DNA of 64,000 nucleotides from Pedococcus aerophilus (lineage in GTDB: Bacteria; Actinomycetota; Actinomycetes; Actinomycetales; Dermatophilaceae), in NCBI RefSeq assembly GCF_039532215.1, contig NZ_BAAARN010000004.1, forward strand, positions 98,261 to 162,260. The letters are read 5' to 3'. Below the pieces are notes generated by a model. That model ran no database searches and was not told where the DNA came from. It saw nothing but the letters and a program-made list of their open reading frames with translations. The translations under genes and the position numbers were made by a program. This document shows, one piece after another, positions 54,804 to 63,104 of this stretch (position 1 is its first letter; each line of letters opens with the position of its first letter).

Positions 54804-56159
54804 TCAGGACCAGTACACGCGTCCGGGGTTGAGGATCCCGCGCGGGTCGAACAGCGCCTTGACCGCCCGCTGCCGCTCGATCGACGCCGCGCCGACCTCG
54901 TCGGGCAGCCAGCGCGCCTTGAGCGAGCCCACGCCGTGCTCCCCGGTGATCGTGCCGCCCATGCCGAGCGCCACCTTCACCAGCTCGCCGAACGCCTCCT
55001 CCGCCCGGTGGCGACTGTCGTCGTCGCCGGCGTCGTAGAAGAAGGACGGGTGCAGGTTGCCGTCGCCACCGTGGCCCGACATCGTGATCTCGACCCCGGT
55101 GCGGGCCGAGATCTCGTGGCCGGCCGTGATGAGGTCGGTGAGCTGGCGGACCGGGACGCACACGTCCTCGATGAAGTGGGTGCCCTTGGCGACGAGCGCG
55201 TGGTGCAGGGCCCGTCGACCGGCGAGCAGGGCCTCGCTCTCCTGCGCGTCGTCGGCGACGGCGACCTCGGTCGCGCCCGCCTCCTCGAGCAGCGCGGCAT
55301 ACCGCTGGACGTCCTCCGCGGTGTGTCCGGGACGGTCGGCCTGGACGATGAGCACCGCCGCGCACCCGGTGGGGAAGCCGTAGTCGGCGATGGCCTGGAC
55401 CGCGGCGAGGGTGGGCTCGTCGAGCAGCTCGAGCAGGCTCGGGCGGTGGCGCTCGCGGCGCAGGGCCACGATCGCGTCGCTGGCGGCGGACAGGCTGTCG
55501 AAGGTCGCGAGGGCAGTCAGCGCAGGGTCGGGTGCGGGGACGAGCTTGGTCACCACCTCGGTGACCACCCCGAGCGTGCCCTCCGACCCGACGAACAGAC
55601 CCGTGAGGTCCAGCCCTGCGACACCCTTGGCCGTGCGGTGGCCGGTGCGGATGACCTCACCGCCGGCGAGCACCACCTCGAGCCCGCGCACGTAGTCGGC
55701 GGTGACGCCGTACTTCACGCAGCACAGGCCACCGGCGTTGGTGGCGACGTTGCCCCCGATGCTGCAGAACGCGGACGAGGCCGGGTCGGGCGGGTAGAAC
55801 AGGCCCTCGGCGGCTGCGGCGGCCTTGAGGTCGGCGTTGATGACCCCGGGCTGCACGACCGCGATGCCCTCGACCGCGTCGAGCTCGGTGATCGTCGTGA
55901 GTCCTTCGAGGGACAGCACGATGCCGCCGTCCAGGGCCACCGACCCACCGGCGAGCCCGCTGCGCGCGCCCTGCGGGACCACGGGGGTCCCCGTGGCCTG
56001 CGCGTGGGCCAGCACGTCCACGACGTCCCCGAGGTCACGGGCGCGCACCACCTCGTAGCGGTCCGGCGCGAGCGCGCCGACCGACTCGTCGATGCCGTAC
56101 GTCGCCTTGACGTCGGGGTCGGTGACGGCACGGGATGACAGCGATTCGGGCAAAGTCAC
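54804..56159 (-). CDS. FAD-linked oxidase, GlcD/D-lactate dehydrogenase type
   Basis: 451 residues. The FAD-binding (PCMH) domain has TPVVPQGARSGLAGGSVALD, ASSAFCSIGGNVATNAGGL and GLFVGSEGTLGVVTEV. The C-terminal FAD-oxidase domain has ITMSGHGGDGNLHPSFFYDA and the GEHGVGSLKARWLP segment with a conserved His, ending NPGRVYWS. The family oxidises 2-hydroxy acids (glycolate, D-lactate, 2-hydroxyglutarate); the substrate cannot be chosen. GTG 56159 overlaps the ECF S-component stop by four bases, so it is translationally coupled to the vitamin transporter, which is unusual. An open frame exists upstream but overlaps the S gene. Confidence 0.9.
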   Translation of the reverse strand: MTLPESLSSRAVTDPDVKATYGIDESVGALAPDRYEVVRARDLGDVVDVLAHAQATGTPVVPQGARSGLAGGSVALDGGIVLSLEGLTTITELDAVEGIAVVQPGVINADLKAAAAAEGLFYPPDPASSAFCSIGGNVATNAGGLCCVKYGVTADYVRGLEVVLAGGEVIRTGHRTAKGVAGLDLTGLFVGSEGTLGVVTEVVTKLVPAPDPALTALATFDSLSAASDAIVALRRERHRPSLLELLDEPTLAAVQAIADYGFPTGCAAVLIVQADRPGHTAEDVQRYAALLEEAGATEVAVADDAQESEALLAGRRALHHALVAKGTHFIEDVCVPVRQLTDLITAGHEISARTGVEITMSGHGGDGNLHPSFFYDAGDDDSRHRAEEAFGELVKVALGMGGTITGEHGVGSLKARWLPDEVGAASIERQRAVKALFDPRGILNPGRVYWS

Positions 56160-57001
56160 CCAGACAGGGTATGCCGCGTGGCCGGCTCGGGCGCGGTGGC
56201 AGCCGGTGCGTCGAAGGTGCCCTCGGCGTCGAAGGCGGCCCGGCGGGAGGCCCGACGGAGGGTGCCGAGCACGGCGCGCCCGGTCACGACGATGAGCACG
56301 ACGTTCGTGACGGCCCGGCCCAGGTCCCACCACGCCGAGGTGGCGAGGGAGAAGAGCCCGAAGCGCCGCAGGTTCTCCCAGGCGGGGTCACCCGCGACGA
56401 ACGACAGGTCACCACCCAGGCCGGTGGCGAAGGGCCAGAACGAGAAGTTGAGGGCGAGGCCGTAGAGCAGGCCGGCCACGGCGCCATACGCCGCCAGCAG
56501 GGCCAGCTCCCAGCGTGGGGGCACCCGGGGGAGCAGGCCAGCACCGAGGCCGACCCAGGCGGCACCCACCATCTGGTAGGGCAGCCACGGGCCCACGCCA
56601 CCGGTCACCAGCGCAGAGGCGAACAACGTCGTCGACCCCAGCACGAAGCCGAACCCCGGCCCGAAGACCCGGCCGCCGAGGACGAGCAGGAAGAACACCG
56701 TCTCCAGGCCTGCGGTGCCGGCGCCGAGGGGGCGCAGGGCCGCCCCGACGGCAGACAGGACGCCGAGCATGGCGATGGCCTTGACGTCGAGGCCACCCTC
56801 GCTGATCTCGAACAGCACCACGGCCAGCAGCAGCGGCAGGAGCAGTGCGAAGACGAGGGGGGCGTCGGCGTTCTGGCCCAGGCGCGAGTCGGCGGTGGCG
56901 AACAGCGGCCAGAGGAACGCGAGCAGACCGGCGACCGAGACGAGGACGAGGGCTGCGGTCGAGCGCGGTCGCAGGGCGACGGCGTTGCGCCGGGAGGTCA
57001 T
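56156..57001 (-). CDS. ECF transporter substrate-binding S component, probable cobalamin (CbrT-like)
   Basis: 281 residues with six hydrophobic segments, as in S components (SVAGLLAFLWPLFATAD, VFALLLPLLLAVVLFEISEG, FGPGFGFVLGSTTLFASALV). An Ala/Gly-rich family helix set and GPWLPYQMVGAAWVGLGAGL are visible. It is encoded with fused ECF ATPases and EcfT behind a cobalamin riboswitch, so cobalamin or a precursor is the expected ligand; CbrT-type actinobacterial systems predicted by comparative genomics fit. ATG 57001 overlaps the ATPase gene by four bases. The C-terminal ~45 residues are charged and cytoplasmic. Confidence 0.85.
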   Translation of the reverse strand: MTSRRNAVALRPRSTAALVLVSVAGLLAFLWPLFATADSRLGQNADAPLVFALLLPLLLAVVLFEISEGGLDVKAIAMLGVLSAVGAALRPLGAGTAGLETVFFLLVLGGRVFGPGFGFVLGSTTLFASALVTGGVGPWLPYQMVGAAWVGLGAGLLPRVPPRWELALLAAYGAVAGLLYGLALNFSFWPFATGLGGDLSFVAGDPAWENLRRFGLFSLATSAWWDLGRAVTNVVLIVVTGRAVLGTLRRASRRAAFDAEGTFDAPAATAPEPATRHTLSG

Positions 57002-58731
57002 CGCGGGCCCCCTGCGACGGCGGGCAGGTCACGGACCGCCCGGCGGACGGCGTCGACGGTGAGCAGCCGGGTGGGGGCGAGCACCTTGACGACCTGTGGG
57101 GCGAAGGCGGGGGAGTCGCACAGGACGTCGGCGGCTGGGCCGTCGGCCACGACCCGCCCCTGGGCGAGCACGACGACCCGGTCGGCCACTCCGGCTGCGA
57201 ACTCCACGTCGTGGGTCGCGACGAGCACCGTGCCCCCAGCGGCCGCCAGGTCGCGGAGCAACGTCGTCAGCCCGGCCTTGGCGGGGTAGTCCAGCCCGCG
57301 GGTGGGCTCGTCGAGCAGCAGCGTCGCCGGTGCAGCCGTCAGCTGGATCGCCACGACGAGCGCGAGCCGCTGCCCCTCGGACAGGTCGCGCGGGTGGGTG
57401 CTGCCGTCGATGCCGGGGGCGAGCCGGTCGAGGTGGCCCTGTGCGGTGCCCGGGGCGGCGTGCGCCTCGGTGTCGGCCTGGTGGCACTCGGCGTCCACGG
57501 TCGGGAGGTAGAGCAGGTCGGCGGCGCTCTGCGGCACGAGCCCGATGTGCCGTCGGCGGGACCGCGGGGACTCCGAGGCTGGGTCGACCGTGGTGCCTGC
57601 CGCGGATCGCACGGCGACGTCGCCGCCGTCGCGGGGGGCGGACCCGTGCAGGGCCCACAGCAGGGACGACTTGCCGGAGCCGTTGCGCCCCATGAGCGCC
57701 ACGACCTCGCCCTCCCGCAGCGACAGGTCGACGCCGTCGACGGCGTCCAGGTCCCCGTGCCGCACGGTGACACCGGTGCCGGTGAGGACGACCTCCCCGT
57801 CGACCTCGTACCCGCCGTTCCGCTCATGGCGGCCTTCGCGGGGGTCGTCAGCGGAACTGGGGGTACGAAGTCGGCCGGAGGGGCGGAGCGCGGCGGGGGA
57901 GGAGAGGGTGGCGAGGTCGGTCCGAAGGCCGGTGGCGGCCCGGCGGGCCTCGCGGACGGTGAGCGGCAGCGGCGTCCAGCCGGCCCACCGGCCGAGGTGG
58001 ACGACCGGCGGAGCGAGCACCGAGTGCTCCATGAGCTCGGGCGGGGCGCCGTGCGTGACGGTGCCGTCGTCGGCCACGACCACGAGCCGGTCAGCGAGGC
58101 CGACGATCCGCTCGAGGCGGTGCTCGGACACCAGCACGGTGAGGCCGAGGTCGTGCACGAGGCGCGACAGGGTGGCCAGCACCTCCTCCGCGCCGGTCGG
58201 GTCCAGGGCCGAGGTGGGTTCGTCGAGCACGAGCACCCTCGGGTCGGCGGTGAGCACGGAGCCGATGGCGACCCGCTGCTGCTGGCCGCCGGACAGGTCG
58301 CGCAGGGGAGCGTCGCGCAGGTCGGCGATCCCGAGGAGGTCGAGCACCTCCTCGACGCGGCGACGCATGGCGGAGGGCTGCACGCCGAGCTGCTCCAGCG
58401 TGTACGCGAGCTCCTCCTCGACGGTGTCGGTGACGAACCCGGCGAGCGGGTCCTGGCTCACCACGCCCACGACGGCTGCGAGGTCACGGGGCCGGTGGGT
58501 GCGGGTGTCGAGCCCCGCGACCGTGACCCGTCCGGAGAGGTGGCCCCCGGTGAAGTGGGGGACGGTGCCGTTGACGGTGCCGAGCAGGGTCGACTTGCCC
58601 GCGCCGGTGCGACCGACGACGACGGCGAGCTCGCCCTCCTCGACCACGACGCAGGCGTCACGCAGGGCGGGACGCTCGCGGTCGGCATACGTGACGCTCA
58701 CGTGGTCGAGGACCACGACGGGGGCGCTCAT
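56998..58731 (-). CDS. ECF transporter A component, two fused ATP-binding domains
   Basis: 577 residues. Domain 1: Walker A VVGRTGAGKST, Q-loop, signature LSGGQQQR, Walker B VLVLDEPTSALD, H-loop SEHR. Domain 2: Walker A MGRNGSGKSS, signature LSEGQRLA (modified), Walker B LLLDEPTRGLD, H-loop THD. A ~70-residue charged linker joins them. It powers the EcfT-S complex; one chain replaces the EcfA/EcfA' pair. ATG 58731 overlaps the EcfT stop by four bases. The altered signature in domain 2 is typical of asymmetric ECF ATPases. Confidence 0.93.
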   Translation of the reverse strand: MSAPVVVLDHVSVTYADRERPALRDACVVVEEGELAVVVGRTGAGKSTLLGTVNGTVPHFTGGHLSGRVTVAGLDTRTHRPRDLAAVVGVVSQDPLAGFVTDTVEEELAYTLEQLGVQPSAMRRRVEEVLDLLGIADLRDAPLRDLSGGQQQRVAIGSVLTADPRVLVLDEPTSALDPTGAEEVLATLSRLVHDLGLTVLVSEHRLERIVGLADRLVVVADDGTVTHGAPPELMEHSVLAPPVVHLGRWAGWTPLPLTVREARRAATGLRTDLATLSSPAALRPSGRLRTPSSADDPREGRHERNGGYEVDGEVVLTGTGVTVRHGDLDAVDGVDLSLREGEVVALMGRNGSGKSSLLWALHGSAPRDGGDVAVRSAAGTTVDPASESPRSRRRHIGLVPQSAADLLYLPTVDAECHQADTEAHAAPGTAQGHLDRLAPGIDGSTHPRDLSEGQRLALVVAIQLTAAPATLLLDEPTRGLDYPAKAGLTTLLRDLAAAGGTVLVATHDVEFAAGVADRVVVLAQGRVVADGPAADVLCDSPAFAPQVVKVLAPTRLLTVDAVRRAVRDLPAVAGGPR

Positions 58732-59822
58732 CGGCGACTTCCGCGTCGGGGCGGCTCGGGGGCCGCTACGGCCGGCAGGGCGGCGAGCAGCAGACCCACC
58801 ACGGCGAGCAGGGGCAGGGCCGGGGGCGCGAGGGGCTCCAGCGGCAGGACGAAGGCGGTGGGCTCGAGCCGGGCTGCGACGACGACCAGGACCGCTGCTG
58901 CGACCCCGGAACCGGCGACGAGCCACTCGGGGAGGGTCCACGGGTCGGGGCGGTACGAGGTCCGCTCCACGGCCGCTCCACCGACCTTCAGCCCGGCGAC
59001 GCACAGCAGCAGGCCGACCGCGAGCATCGGGAGACCCACGACCGCGGGAGCGGTGGCGTCGAGCACGCCGTAGGTGCCGACCGCGGCACCGAGCAGGCCG
59101 GTCAGGGTCAGGGCGCCGGTCAGGTGACGGGTGCGGGCGGACTGGACAGGGCGTCGGCCGTACCCGCGCGAGTCCATCGCCGACGCCAGCAGCAGCGATC
59201 GGTCGAGGGTGTCCTGGAGCACCGGCAGCGCGACCCGGCCCACGGACCGCAGGCCGGAGCCGCCCTCGCCGCGCAGGACCCGCGCGCGGCGGACCCGCTG
59301 GACGCTCTCGGCCAGCTGCGGCGCCACGGTGACGGAGATGACGACCGCCGTCCCGATCTCGTGCAGGGCGCTGGGGAGCGCGCGCAGCAGCCGCTTGGGG
59401 TTGGCAAGGGCGTTGGCGGCACCGATGCACGCGATGAGCGAGGCGAGCCGCAGGCCCTCGACGGCTGCCGCCAGCACCCCCTCGAGGTAGACCGGGCCCA
59501 GGATCGTGATGCCCGGCAGGTCGATGCTCGGCAGCGAGTAGAGCCGGGTCGTCCCGAACTTGAACCCCACCAGCAGGTGGAGCGCCACGCGCAGGACGAC
59601 GATCGAGGCGCCGAGGACGAGGTAGAGCCGGAAGGCGCGCGCCCACGGCGAGCTGCCCCTGCGCGCGGAGACGACCAGCGCCGCGATGCTCACGGCGAGC
59701 AGCAGGAGCAGCGGGTTCGTGGTCCGTGAGCACGCCACGGCCAGCCCGATCGCCCACACCCACCAAGCCACCGGGTGCAGGTGGCGGGGGAGGGGGCTAC
59801 GGACCGGTCGTGGCGCGGACAT
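58728..59822 (-). CDS. ECF transporter transmembrane T component (EcfT)
   Basis: 364 residues, six to eight membrane helices. The family coupling-helix motifs are present: ANPKRLLRALPSALHEIG and LASAMDSRGYGRR (Ala-Arg-Gly signature) near residue 220. It is longer than most EcfT (about 260) due to extra C-terminal helices (AGSGVAAAVLVVVAARLE, PALPLLAVVGLLLAALPAV). ATG 59822 lies three bases after the upstream surface-protein gene stop. Confidence 0.92.
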   Translation of the reverse strand: MSAPRPVRSPLPRHLHPVAWWVWAIGLAVACSRTTNPLLLLLAVSIAALVVSARRGSSPWARAFRLYLVLGASIVVLRVALHLLVGFKFGTTRLYSLPSIDLPGITILGPVYLEGVLAAAVEGLRLASLIACIGAANALANPKRLLRALPSALHEIGTAVVISVTVAPQLAESVQRVRRARVLRGEGGSGLRSVGRVALPVLQDTLDRSLLLASAMDSRGYGRRPVQSARTRHLTGALTLTGLLGAAVGTYGVLDATAPAVVGLPMLAVGLLLCVAGLKVGGAAVERTSYRPDPWTLPEWLVAGSGVAAAVLVVVAARLEPTAFVLPLEPLAPPALPLLAVVGLLLAALPAVAAPEPPRRGSRR

Positions 59823-59825
59823 GGC

Positions 59826-60800
59826 TCAGCCGTGCGTGCGGCGGCGGTGGGTGAGGTATGCCGCCGAGGCACCGACGACACCGATGAGCCCGATCCCTGC
59901 GGCGAGGGTGGTGGGCGAACCGGAGTCCGGCGTCGTCGCGGCCTGCGCGGCGGTGTCGGGTGCCGACTGCTCGGTGCCACCCGTGGTCGCCGTGCCGGAC
60001 GTCGCGGTGGAAGCGGTGCTGTCGGGCGCCGTCGCGGTCCCGGTGCTGCGCGGGGTCGACGGAGCCGGCTTGCCCGCAGCCTTGGTGGTGGCGGGGGATC
60101 CGGACGTCGTCGCGCCCGACGACGGCTTCGCGGTGGTGCCGGACCCGGAGGACGGTGCCGTGGCGTTCGCCGAGGTGCCCGCCGAGGTGCTGCGGGGGGT
60201 GCTCGTCGCGCGGGGCTTCGTGGAGGAGGTCGCGCGCGGAGTGCTCGATGCGCTCGGCCTGGTGCTCGGCTTCGGGGTGGAGGATGAGCTCGGCTTCGGT
60301 GCGCTGGCTGCGGCCGGCGGAGCGGTGTCGGGCTTGCCGCCCGAACCGAACGCGAACCCGATGACCGTGCCCGGCGCCGGGTTGTAGCTCGCGACCCCCG
60401 ACTGGCTGTAGGTCCAGGAGCCGCCACGGGGTGCGTGGAAGAACGCCCAGTAGGCGCTCGCCGGCGGCATCTGGATGCACGGGTCGCTTGCCGGCGTGCC
60501 GTTGATCCGGCAGACGACGGTGCCCGGGTAGCGCTGCGGCGACACGACCGTGGCGACGGCCTTGAGCGCGCTCATGGCCGACGACGGGTCGCCCGCCGCG
60601 CACGACGTGGTGGAGGACGACCCGTAGTCGATGACGACGGTGACCCCGGTGGTGCCGGAGCAGGCCGCCGCCTGGGCGGCCCCACCCGGGAGGGCGAGGC
60701 CGCCGGCGGCGACGAGGGCTGCGGCAGCCACGAGCCGACCGAGGTGGCGGGTGGCGTGACGCGCAGGGCTGCGGGTGACGTGGCTGGCGACGTGGCGCAT
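59826..60800 (-). CDS. Secreted DUF4430/transcobalamin-beta-domain-like protein with mucin-like stalk
   Basis: 324 residues. Signal peptide (about 1-45, ending GGAAQAA), then a ~110-residue beta domain with the pattern of the intrinsic factor/transcobalamin C-terminal (DUF4430) domain: VTVVIDYGSSST, DPCIQMPPASAYWAFFHAPR and GSWTYSQSGVASYNPAPGTV. A ~140-residue Ser/Thr/Pro-rich stalk and a C-terminal membrane helix (LAAGIGLIGVVGASAAYLTH) with Arg tail follow. Four Cys residues (including SCAAGD, TVVCRING) may form disulfides. ATG 60800 overlaps the upstream stop (TGATG). It likely forms the second half of a B12-binding surface protein with the upstream product. Confidence 0.85.
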   Translation of the reverse strand: MRHVASHVTRSPARHATRHLGRLVAAAALVAAGGLALPGGAAQAAACSGTTGVTVVIDYGSSSTTSCAAGDPSSAMSALKAVATVVSPQRYPGTVVCRINGTPASDPCIQMPPASAYWAFFHAPRGGSWTYSQSGVASYNPAPGTVIGFAFGSGGKPDTAPPAAASAPKPSSSSTPKPSTRPSASSTPRATSSTKPRATSTPRSTSAGTSANATAPSSGSGTTAKPSSGATTSGSPATTKAAGKPAPSTPRSTGTATAPDSTASTATSGTATTGGTEQSAPDTAAQAATTPDSGSPTTLAAGIGLIGVVGASAAYLTHRRRTHG

Positions 60801-62518
60801 CAGGCGTGGACGCCCTTGCGACGAGCCAGGACCAGCGCGGCGGCGCCGGCGAGGAGCAGCAGGAGCCCGGTGATGACGAAGGCGCTGACGTCCGCACCGG
60901 TGAAGGCCAGCGAACCCGGGGTGGACGACGCGGGGTCGTCCGAGCCGTTCGCCCCGTCGGACCCGGCGCCCGTGCCTCCGGACCCGGCGGTCGCGGAACC
61001 GGTGTCCAGCGGACCCGAGGTCGTCGAGGAGGACGACATCGAGGTGGCCGTCGAGGTGGTCGACGTCGTGCTGGTGGGGCTCGTGGTCGTCGAGGTCGTC
61101 GGCGCCGCGCAGGTCAGGTCGGGCGCCGTGGCGTCCGCACCGGTGCCGGACACGGCATACAGCGGGGTGCCGGCGAGGGCGAGCAGCGCCTGGCTGGTCG
61201 CGCGGCGGTCCTGGTCCTGGACCGTCGCCCCCTTGACCGCGGCCGCGGTGAACGCGGTGGCGTCGTAGGCGATTCCACCGCGGAAGGCGGTGGGGTAGGT
61301 GCAGCCGTACTGGAGGGCGCGCAGGTAGCCCTGGGCGGCGCGGGCCTGGGCCGAACGGCCACCGGCGAGGAACGCCTGGCCGGCGAGGCCGGTCGAGTTG
61401 GCGTTGTGGGCCGCGGTCGGACCGGCGCCACCGACGCCGCCGTCGGCGCCCTGGATGCCGGCGAGGTAGTCCAGGCCCTGCCCGGCGTCGGAGTCACCGG
61501 CACCACCCGCGGCCAGGAGCGCCTGGACCGCGAAGGCGGTGACGTCGGGGTCGCTGGTGCAGGGGCTCGCGTCGAAGCTCAGGCTGAAGCCGCCGTCGGT
61601 GCACTGGTTGTCGCGGATGATCTCGACCGCGGCCGGGGAGACCGTCTCGCCGGCGCGGCGCAGGGCCATCACGGCGAGCGACTGCCCGATGAGGTTGGAG
61701 TAGTCGGTGTAGGCGGTCTTGTCGCTGAAGCGCCCGTTCGGCTGCTCCAGCCCCTCCAGGGAGGAGACGAGGTCGACCCCGCCGAAGGCGGTCGGGTCGA
61801 CGCCCTGGGCGACGGCGACGAGGAGCGTCTTCGCGGCGGCGCCGGCGTAGAACTCGGTGTCACCGAAGGCGAAGCCGATGTACTGCCCGACGTTGTCGGC
61901 GACGTACTTCGTCGCAGCAGCGGCCTCGGTCTGCCCGGCGCCGGCGGCGTCGAGCGCGAGGACCGCGTCGAGGGTGACGCCGTAGTCGGGGTAGTCGACA
62001 CCGTCGAAGCTCACCGAGAGGTGGTGGCCGCCCGCCGCGAGCTCACGCTCGAGGAAGCCGGCGCCGACGAGGGCTGGGTCCGTCGAGGTGGCGGGCAGGG
62101 CCGACGGGGCCGCGAGGCCGTACCGCGCGGCGTCGCCCCCGGCGACGAGCCCACCGGTGCTGGTCGTGGTCGCGGGGCTCGGTGCAGTGGCGGTCGAGCC
62201 GGTCGTGCCGGTCGACGGCGCGGTGGTCGACGGGCTCGTGGTCGAGGGGGCCGTGGACGACGGGCTCGTCGTCGAGGGGGTCGTGGCCGGTGCGGTGGTA
62301 GTCGCCCCCGTCGTCGCTGACGACGACGTGGTGGCCGACGGGGCGGAGCTGGTGGCCGAACCGGTCGACGGGCTGGTGGTCGACGCGCTGGTCGTCGTAC
62401 CGGCCGGACCGGTGGGGGTGGTGGTGCTCGCGGACGCAAGACCCGGCGTCACGAGCGTGGCGGCAACCGCCAGGGCGAGCGCGGCAGCCGGACGGGCGCT
62501 GCGGATGGAGTGGTACAT
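60800..62518 (-). CDS. Wall-anchored alpha/alpha-barrel protein, intrinsic-factor N-domain-like
   Basis: 572 residues. Signal peptide (about 1-31), a ~110-residue Ser/Thr-rich stretch, then an alpha-6/alpha-6 barrel of the prenyltransferase/squalene-oxidase-repeat type (IRDNQCTDGGFSL, DVTAFAVQALLAAGGAG, GIAYDATAFTAAAV, RRATSQALLALAG), the fold of transcobalamin and intrinsic factor N-domains. A Thr/Ser stalk and a class E-type sorting signal (SLAFTG, hydrophobic helix, ARRKG) end it, so sortase anchoring is inferred. ATG 62518 has AGAGG at six bases; the longer open frame would run through the terminator of the riboswitch. It is the first gene of the operon. Confidence 0.87.
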   Translation of the reverse strand: MYHSIRSARPAAALALAVAATLVTPGLASASTTTPTGPAGTTTSASTTSPSTGSATSSAPSATTSSSATTGATTTAPATTPSTTSPSSTAPSTTSPSTTAPSTGTTGSTATAPSPATTTSTGGLVAGGDAARYGLAAPSALPATSTDPALVGAGFLERELAAGGHHLSVSFDGVDYPDYGVTLDAVLALDAAGAGQTEAAAATKYVADNVGQYIGFAFGDTEFYAGAAAKTLLVAVAQGVDPTAFGGVDLVSSLEGLEQPNGRFSDKTAYTDYSNLIGQSLAVMALRRAGETVSPAAVEIIRDNQCTDGGFSLSFDASPCTSDPDVTAFAVQALLAAGGAGDSDAGQGLDYLAGIQGADGGVGGAGPTAAHNANSTGLAGQAFLAGGRSAQARAAQGYLRALQYGCTYPTAFRGGIAYDATAFTAAAVKGATVQDQDRRATSQALLALAGTPLYAVSGTGADATAPDLTCAAPTTSTTTSPTSTTSTTSTATSMSSSSTTSGPLDTGSATAGSGGTGAGSDGANGSDDPASSTPGSLAFTGADVSAFVITGLLLLLAGAAALVLARRKGVHA

Positions 62519-62569
62519 GGTGCCTCTCAGTGCGAGCGGTGTCGCGACGGTGGCACCGGTGCACCCGCA

Positions 62570-62616
62570 GGAAAAGACAGAACCCCCGCTCGTCGCTCTC
62601 ACGACAAACAGGGGGT
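62570..62616 (-). terminator. Riboswitch-controlled intrinsic terminator
   Basis: On the minus strand ACCCCC (62616 to 62611) pairs with GGGGGT (62587 to 62582) around an internal TCGT/ACGA stem, and is followed by a T-rich tail (TCTGTCTTTTC, 62580 to 62570). The competing antiterminator pairs GGGGTGG (62651 to 62645) with CCACCCC (62618 to 62612). The two structures share 62612-62616, so they exclude each other. Confidence 0.85.
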
Positions 62617-62644
62617 GGCCTCGGACCTGGTGGGTGTCCGGGCT

Positions 62645-62806
62645 CCACCCCGCGTACCTCGACGGATTTGGAGCCGCTTCGCGTTCCAGGCATTCCGGCT
62701 CGCCACCCTCGCGGGCGGCCTACGGTTGCGGGTCAGCGCCGGACTTGGACCGGCTTCCCCTGTGGCGCGTCGTGGTGTCACCCGAGGGCGACGGCCCGAC
62801 TCTACA
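62645..62806 (-). promoter_or_regulatory. Cobalamin (B12) riboswitch aptamer
   Basis: Minus-strand sequence has the core of the family: GGGGAAGCCGGTCCAAGTCC from 62760 downwards, then GCTGACCCGCAAC (62737 to 62725), and the B12 box GAGCCGGAATGCC (62701 to 62689). It lies upstream of the B12 uptake operon and is followed by an antiterminator/terminator pair, so bound cobalamin should stop transcription before the surface-protein gene. The aptamer borders (P1, P2) are approximate. Confidence 0.9.
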
Positions 62807-62858
62807 CCCGCGCCGCGGCGGCGCCGGAAACCCGGACGAGCCCCTCGTCCCACCCCGC

Positions 62859-62864
62859 TAGACT
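62859..62864 (+). promoter_or_regulatory. Candidate -10 element of ileS
   Basis: TAGACT lies about seven bases before the start of the T-box stem I, at the right distance for a transcript beginning near 62871. No convincing -35 is visible in this GC-rich stretch. Confidence 0.45.
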
Positions 62865-62870
62865 GGTCCC

Positions 62871-63104
62871 ACAGGCATCGACCCGGCCATCACCGGCGAG
62901 CCTCCGGAAGAACAGGACCACCCGCCCCGGCGGACGGTCCCCACTAGACCCGGACGGGTGGGCCCGTCATCGCCTGGCACAAGAGCGGTCGTATGCCGCG
63001 TGGTCACCCACGCGTCGTGCGGCAAGCGAGGTGGTACCGCGGTGCGGCCGGGACGTCCCGGCGACATCGTCCTCGTGCGACACGCACGAACGATGACGAA
63101 GGAC
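62871..63104 (+). promoter_or_regulatory. T-box riboswitch of ileS, short-stem-I translational type
   Basis: Stem I spans about 62873-62903 with the specifier codon ATC (62889-62891, isoleucine) in its loop (CCGGCCATCACCGGCGAGCC). The T-box core GAGGTGGTACCGCGG is at 63028-63042. Downstream, GTCCT (63069-63073) can pair with the ribosome site AGGAC (63100-63104), and TCGTGC/GCACGA (63073-63078 with 63084-63089) forms the inner stem, giving a sequestering hairpin. This matches the actinobacterial ileS design in which uncharged tRNA-Ile opens the ribosome site. Confidence 0.92.

Follow-up and report, generated by a model that had tools for sequence, protein, structure and literature searches.

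The locus described here raises the question of whether a bacterium captures vitamin B12 at its surface with the two domains of the animal B12 carriers divided between two proteins. It lies in a 64,000-nucleotide stretch of Pedococcus aerophilus DNA (contig NZ_BAAARN010000004.1, positions 98,261 to 162,260), which is called the window here, and consists of a run of five minus-strand genes in the order P1, P2, EcfT, fused EcfA-EcfA' and S component, behind a cobalamin riboswitch. We consider it probable that these genes form a B12-repressible corrinoid scavenging operon, in which P1 and P2 make up a two-part capture module and the other three an energy-coupling factor (ECF) importer. The following features, all on the minus strand, have been used for this analysis.

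62687..62764, minus strand: compact cobalamin riboswitch aptamer, 78 nt (RF00174, 30.6 bits, E 8.2e-6; covarying pairs)
62583..62614, minus strand: intrinsic-terminator-like hairpin with U-rich tail, likely expression platform, between the aptamer and the first start codon
60800..62518, minus strand: P1, secreted alpha/alpha-toroid protein of 572 residues with a wall-anchor signal
61037..62038, minus strand: toroid domain of P1, residues 161-494 (profile A3 against PDB sequences; SCO2321_fam)
60896..60910, minus strand: LAFTG sorting signal of P1, residues 537-541 (sequence reading)
59826..60800, minus strand: P2, secreted beta-domain protein of 324 residues with stalk and membrane anchor
60336..60671, minus strand: transcobalamin-type beta-grasp domain of P2, residues 44-155 (112 residues)
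59853..59909, minus strand: C-terminal hydrophobic anchor of P2, from residue 298 (sequence reading)
58728..59822, minus strand: EcfT (CbiQ family), energy-coupling membrane protein (PF02361, 39.6 bits against a cut-off of 25)
56998..58731, minus strand: EcfA-EcfA', fused ATPases of 577 residues (two ABC_tran stretches, 158.4 bits)
56156..57001, minus strand: S component of 281 residues, presumed corrinoid-binding membrane subunit (PF12822, 28.8 bits, slightly under the cut-off of 30.7)

Stop and start codons overlap at the P1/P2 junction (GCC TGATG CGC), EcfT starts three bases past the end of P2, and ATGA overlaps join EcfT to EcfA-EcfA' and EcfA-EcfA' to the S component. The five gene positions, the TGATG overlap and the LAFTG signal reported by the first-pass annotation of this DNA are borne out by the reading frames.

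A search of the whole window with Rfam at gathering scores gave no match, while with permissive filters RF00174 reached 30.6 bits at 62760-62632 against a gathering score of 31.5. The window aptamer falls below this score because, as the relatives suggest, these operons carry a compact aptamer of about 78 nt. In an alignment of this form (A8, eight rows, L101 having been removed from the initial nine; handles beginning with L denote loci), the conserved core and paired elements of RF00174 are present, 97.4% of the cells are paired in the compact structure compared with 24-55% when it is slid, and four pairs have changed on both sides. A first RNA model, R1, was replaced by a second, R2, because the RNAalifold pairs of R1 conflicted with the aptamer fold. 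R2 scores the window aptamer, one of its own training rows, at 96.7 bits, and finds the operon aptamer in all 16 of 16 loci (seven of which supplied training rows), where the Rfam gathering score lists it in eight. Aptamers near or below the gathering score, unlisted at that score and found by R2, are those of the window (62687-62764) and of L077, L083, L106, L041, L046, L051, L065 and L061. With the score, the compact form common to relatives and the covarying pairs, the cobalamin riboswitch proposed earlier ahead of the operon is supported. Two terminator-like sites were found in 62480-63000, where shuffled sequences average 0.1, and the fold z-score of 62555-62640 is -4.15. Because the U-tailed hairpin lies between the aptamer and the start codon, the sequence suggests that the operon is controlled by transcription termination.

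The transporter genes correspond to a dedicated (group I) ECF module, with EcfT, two ATPases and an S component encoded together. EcfT and both ATP-binding cassette domains, which sit in one protein, score above their Pfam cut-offs; the S component is just below, and in its family 24 of 31 relatives match PF12822 at E<=0.1. The complete ECF transporter claimed by the first reading is thus upheld. When the 80 best of 576 relatives are compared, the closest named S component belongs to Phycicoccus sp. Root101 (94%). These data also bear on the possibility that the importer carries another ligand, such as cobalt, cobinamide or another tetrapyrrole, and merely shares B12 regulation: EcfT belongs to the CbiQ 'cobalt transport' family, the profile of the S component has no match among the PDB sequences of solved structures, and cobalamin riboswitches are described as also controlling cobalt transporters (PMC3766115, as far as its accessible text goes). 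We regard this as improbable, since neither CbiM nor CbiN was found in a Pfam scan of the five proteins of the operon and the beta domain of P2 has a carrier fold. In the host genome, MetH and NrdJ, which require finished B12, are above cut-off, while CbiC was not found and CobQ reaches 36.3 bits against a cut-off of 309.9, so that a need for cobalt to make B12 is unlikely. By these two B12 synthesis genes, the ones looked for, the host is likely a B12 auxotroph. The operon may still take up cobinamide, which would be a small change to the reading as a corrinoid scavenging operon. A second cobalamin riboswitch in the same genome, canonical and full-length, scores 88.5 bits and precedes a gene resembling those of ribonucleotide reductases (L001, C1:428422-431671), whose NrdJ score of 381.3 is below cut-off.

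To survey relatives, the S-component alignment A1 was used for a profile search of genome contigs, and the best 80 of 576 confirmed relatives were taken. They include Phycicoccus, Knoellia, Janibacter, Nocardioides, Ornithinimicrobium, Streptomyces, Amycolatopsis, Lentzea, Actinomadura, Kribbella and Acidimicrobiia. The main counts refer to the 65 loci with at least 6.5 kb upstream; 15 of the 80 were set aside, five of these with a beta domain and three with a toroid. EcfT and the ATPases are present in 65/65. Within 9 kb on either strand, the beta domain was found in 64/65 and the toroid in 56/65, where A1 had been built from loci originally found through the beta domain. The beta gene lies immediately before EcfT in 62/65, and in 51/65 a toroid precedes EcfT in the same orientation, with five more on the other strand or downstream; because of these two placements, the gene association is not due to chance. 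A match of R2 stands just upstream of the operon in 62/65 loci (rows of L096 and L111 trained R2); L086 has no match, and matches of L107 and L120 inside the scripted operon span were scored as misses. In a second survey, anchored on the beta domain and covering 42 of 99 genomes of the family, 40 regions, some cut by contig ends, contained EcfT in 40, ATPases in 38, the S component in 36 and the toroid in 32, and 36 of them had a riboswitch at some position (five supplied training rows). The two surveys (L036-L075 and L076-L155) share genomes, e.g. L036 and L076, and are therefore not independent. The survey of riboswitch-linked homologues called for in the first-pass annotation has thus found the linkage across many genera, and the B12-linked uptake operon proposed there is supported. 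At L110 (6699-8316), a riboswitch and ECF genes were found with neither toroid nor beta domain detected nearby.

P1 has, in order, a signal-peptide-like start, a Ser/Thr-rich stretch, the toroid, a second Ser/Thr-rich stretch, LAFTG, a hydrophobic stretch and a basic tail. The pattern of sortase-anchored proteins (signal peptide, LAxTG, hydrophobic stretch, basic tail) is complete by eye and by script, and the NCBIfam models for LAVTG and LAXTG score 23.4 (cut-off 27) and 26.5 (cut-off 65). Four sortases are encoded in the host genome. A single toroid profile, built in part from the window itself, retrieves both P1 (5.5e-130) and the toroid of L101 (2.7e-71), and P1 matches SCO2321_fam of NCBIfam at 90.1 bits, below its curated cut-off of 300.

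The possibility that the toroid is an enzyme rather than a binder, for example terpene-cyclase-like or glycosidase-like, with a corrinoid or wall component as its substrate, arises from the same profiles. Toroid profile A3 matches squalene-hopene cyclase among PDB sequences at 1.7e-30, and P1 matches Pfam SQHop_cyclase_C only below cut-off (19 against 26.1 bits). Ranked by Z, the structural neighbours of the toroid are terpene cyclases and GH76 mannanases. No B12 carrier is among the 56 distinct PDB sequences matched, whose titles are cyclases, prenyltransferases, complement and other non-carriers. A conserved S-D-P-D-A-T-A stretch, with D163 kept in 95% and D165 in 90% (n=40, toroid-domain numbering), aligns with the D-x-D-D-T-A stretch that has a catalytic role in cyclases. 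The final D of D-x-D-D, however, is mostly A in the toroids and V in P1 of the window; alpha/alpha toroids are common to enzymes and B12 carriers alike, and binding is the better match for the riboswitch and for fusion with a transcobalamin-type beta domain. An enzymatic toroid is therefore highly improbable in our view.

P2 starts with a signal-peptide-like stretch, and its beta-grasp domain is followed by a stalk (residues 156-297) consisting of 78% Ser/Thr/Pro/Ala and by the C-terminal hydrophobic stretch, as the stalk and membrane anchor of the earlier description require. The label 'DUF4430-like' given to P2 fails at the Pfam level, where none of 56 beta domains is matched by PF14478 at E<=0.1 and the own genome has no match either, and a likeness appears only through profile-profile comparison and fold. 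In hhalign, a possible remote kinship of the beta domain with DUF4430 scored 82% (E 1e-5) and 58% (E 1e-4), compared with 0.2% and 0.05% for controls; the DUF4430 alignment A9 was prepared from 28 of 30 loci tried, three being too short, and used 24 of 25 prepared rows. A transcobalamin-type beta domain is supported in P2. The beta profile has no match among PDB sequences. SCO2322_fam of NCBIfam is matched by 70 of 76 beta domains at E<=0.01, and by the window at 29.2 bits, below the curated cut-off of 85. In alignment A5, comprising the window and 75 of 101 listed beta domains, the cysteines C4, C24, C54 and C65 are 91-100% conserved (n=76; window 60336-60671), which suggests that they form disulphides.

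Natural fusions connect the two domains directly. In L096, L098 and L101, a toroid is followed by a beta domain in one open frame with EcfT next, which is the order in intrinsic factor, and in L079, L095, L116, L128, L140, L151 and L154 a beta domain is followed by one or two toroids in one frame. Alignment A7, picked from trial alignments, consists of the three fusions, the window toroid with 50 of 73 listed toroids, and the window beta domain with 15 of 101 listed beta domains, the toroid rows having been shortened by 40 residues each at the end. An earlier fusion alignment, A6, was rejected, since its toroid rows slid onto the beta domain. When a model of the L101 fusion was compared by Foldseek, 14 carriers (transcobalamin, haptocorrin, intrinsic factor) ranked first, and its toroid has the alpha/alpha fold of the carrier family. 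By this relative, the toroid plus beta architecture claimed for the window is supported.

In the ligand-free L101 model, the two domains do not superpose jointly on carriers (root-mean-square deviation 20-23 A, template-modelling score about 0.4), so that the closed clamp is not reproduced. VIA-align of the fusion lists no cobalamin carrier in 50 rows, which are filled by the toroid domain. Since no toroid was found nearby in 9/65 operons, the main rival to joint clamping is that P2 alone is the corrinoid receptor feeding the S component, the toroid being an independent B12 binder or store that forms no clamp with P2. The beta gene directly before EcfT is the more frequent arrangement (62/65, compared with 51/65 for the upstream toroid), lone toroid genes are also found behind their own riboswitch, a sorting motif is present in just 20 of 54 operon toroid proteins, the L101 model lacks a carrier-like closed arrangement, and PDB entry 5np4, by its title, is a structure of the human transcobalamin beta domain on its own with cyanocobalamin. 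We nevertheless consider capture by P2 alone unlikely, because several lineages fuse both domains in one frame in either order, which favours joint work, and because toroid and beta domain are both upstream of EcfT in 51/65 operons.

If the operon works as a joint capture system, low cellular cobalamin would permit transcription through the compact riboswitch, and the cell would make the dedicated importer together with the capture module. The toroid of P1 would be fixed at the cell wall, and the beta-grasp domain of P2 would be held by its flexible stalk at the membrane next to the importer. These two domains would be the counterparts, on separate chains, of the alpha and beta domains in intrinsic factor and transcobalamin; each would give the corrinoid one face, and as a clamp they would concentrate it at the surface and pass it on, presumably delivered by P2, to the S component, which would take it over for ATP-driven import. 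We also offer tentatively, and with less than even confidence, a ligand-assembled split clamp, in which B12 closes the wall toroid on the membrane beta domain, bridging wall and membrane and bringing the loaded module to the S component. Human intrinsic factor fragments are reported to reassemble around cobalamin, and a split carrier would then be chemically plausible.

Anchors were classified by simple home-made sequence rules. By these, 61 of the 67 beta proteins directly before EcfT (all EcfT loci) have a hydrophobic C-terminus with a basic tail and one has a sorting motif; among the 54 operon toroid proteins not included in those 67, LAxTG or LPVTG is present in 20 and a hydrophobic C-terminus in 42; and among 22 proteins with a toroid or beta domain that are encoded outside the operon, five have a hydrophobic C-terminus and two a sorting motif. 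Counting domains rather than genes, 16 of the 25 that lie elsewhere than in the operons of the 65 loci follow a riboswitch of their own. Solitary toroids with their own cobalamin riboswitch and no C-terminal anchor detected were found in L099 (10912-12109), L108 (16671-17891), L111 (1911-3034, minus strand) and L119 (10830-11965, minus strand), and in L121, L130 and L143. They are possibly released B12 catchers.

Comparison with known systems shows what is shared. With the animal carriers intrinsic factor, transcobalamin and haptocorrin, the operon has in common an alpha/alpha toroid and the type of its beta-grasp domain; it differs in having two genes, two anchors, a bacterial surface location and no sequence match at the Pfam level. 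In the window the domains are not on one chain, and the L101 model does not reproduce the relative placement they have in the carriers. Bacteroides B12-binding surface lipoproteins have other folds and serve an outer-membrane route. The DUF4465- and BtuG-type lipoproteins of this group are likewise auxiliary surface proteins for B12 capture, according to two reports as listed (PMC6143338, PMC13398666). ECF-CbrT of Lactobacillus delbrueckii is another B12 transporter of the ECF type and has an S component of its own, but the accessible text on it mentions no surface capture protein (PMC5997447); in the present operon the ATPases form one protein, and the S gene lies beside the other ECF genes. 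The novelty implied by the first-pass annotation, which knew of no described actinobacterial system of this kind, was somewhat overstated. Burroughs et al. (2007), in the sections accessible, proposed that bacterial surface beta-grasp (SLBB) proteins, often joined to toroids and encoded with CbiO/CbiQ, are B12 scavengers, and also proposed complexes among separate surface SLBB proteins (PMC1796856). Surface beta-grasp and toroid domains, an ABC ATPase/CbiQ operon and B12 scavenging are therefore in common, whereas the present system is actinobacterial, has a divergent beta domain with four conserved cysteines, carries toroid and beta domain on two differently anchored chains, and has a documented compact riboswitch and S component. 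NCBIfam also has two families, SCO2321 and SCO2322, with names that carry no functional information; they match P1 and the beta domains, respectively, with the window proteins below both curated cut-offs. What is added here is a divergent actinobacterial branch missed by the DUF4430 model, with two differently anchored chains, an S component, a compact riboswitch and fusions in both orders. An actinobacterial toroid/beta/ECF operon was not found among the papers listed, a weak negative since most subscription journals were outside the search; there, SCO2322-SCO2325 were not named, SCO2321 appeared only in an unrelated context, and of the papers mentioning DUF4430 one deals with vertebrate B12 binders and none, as listed, with this system. 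The accessible part of a Streptomyces lividans reannotation gives two RF00174 sites, before cobD and cbiM, and none before such an operon (PMC8079986).

These results provide a likely function for two actinobacterial families that are named only by gene numbers, and a candidate B12 uptake route across many actinobacterial genera. A separate family model for the compact aptamer may reveal more B12-controlled genes. The bacterial kin of intrinsic factor are extended to forms in which the domains are split, fused in either order, wall- or membrane-anchored or unanchored, and these are a natural test set for domain cooperation. If the clamp is indeed assembled by its ligand, the solitary secreted toroids behind their own riboswitches would be released B12 catchers, and the animal B12 carriers would represent a fused and secreted version of a module also employed by bacteria as two separate parts.
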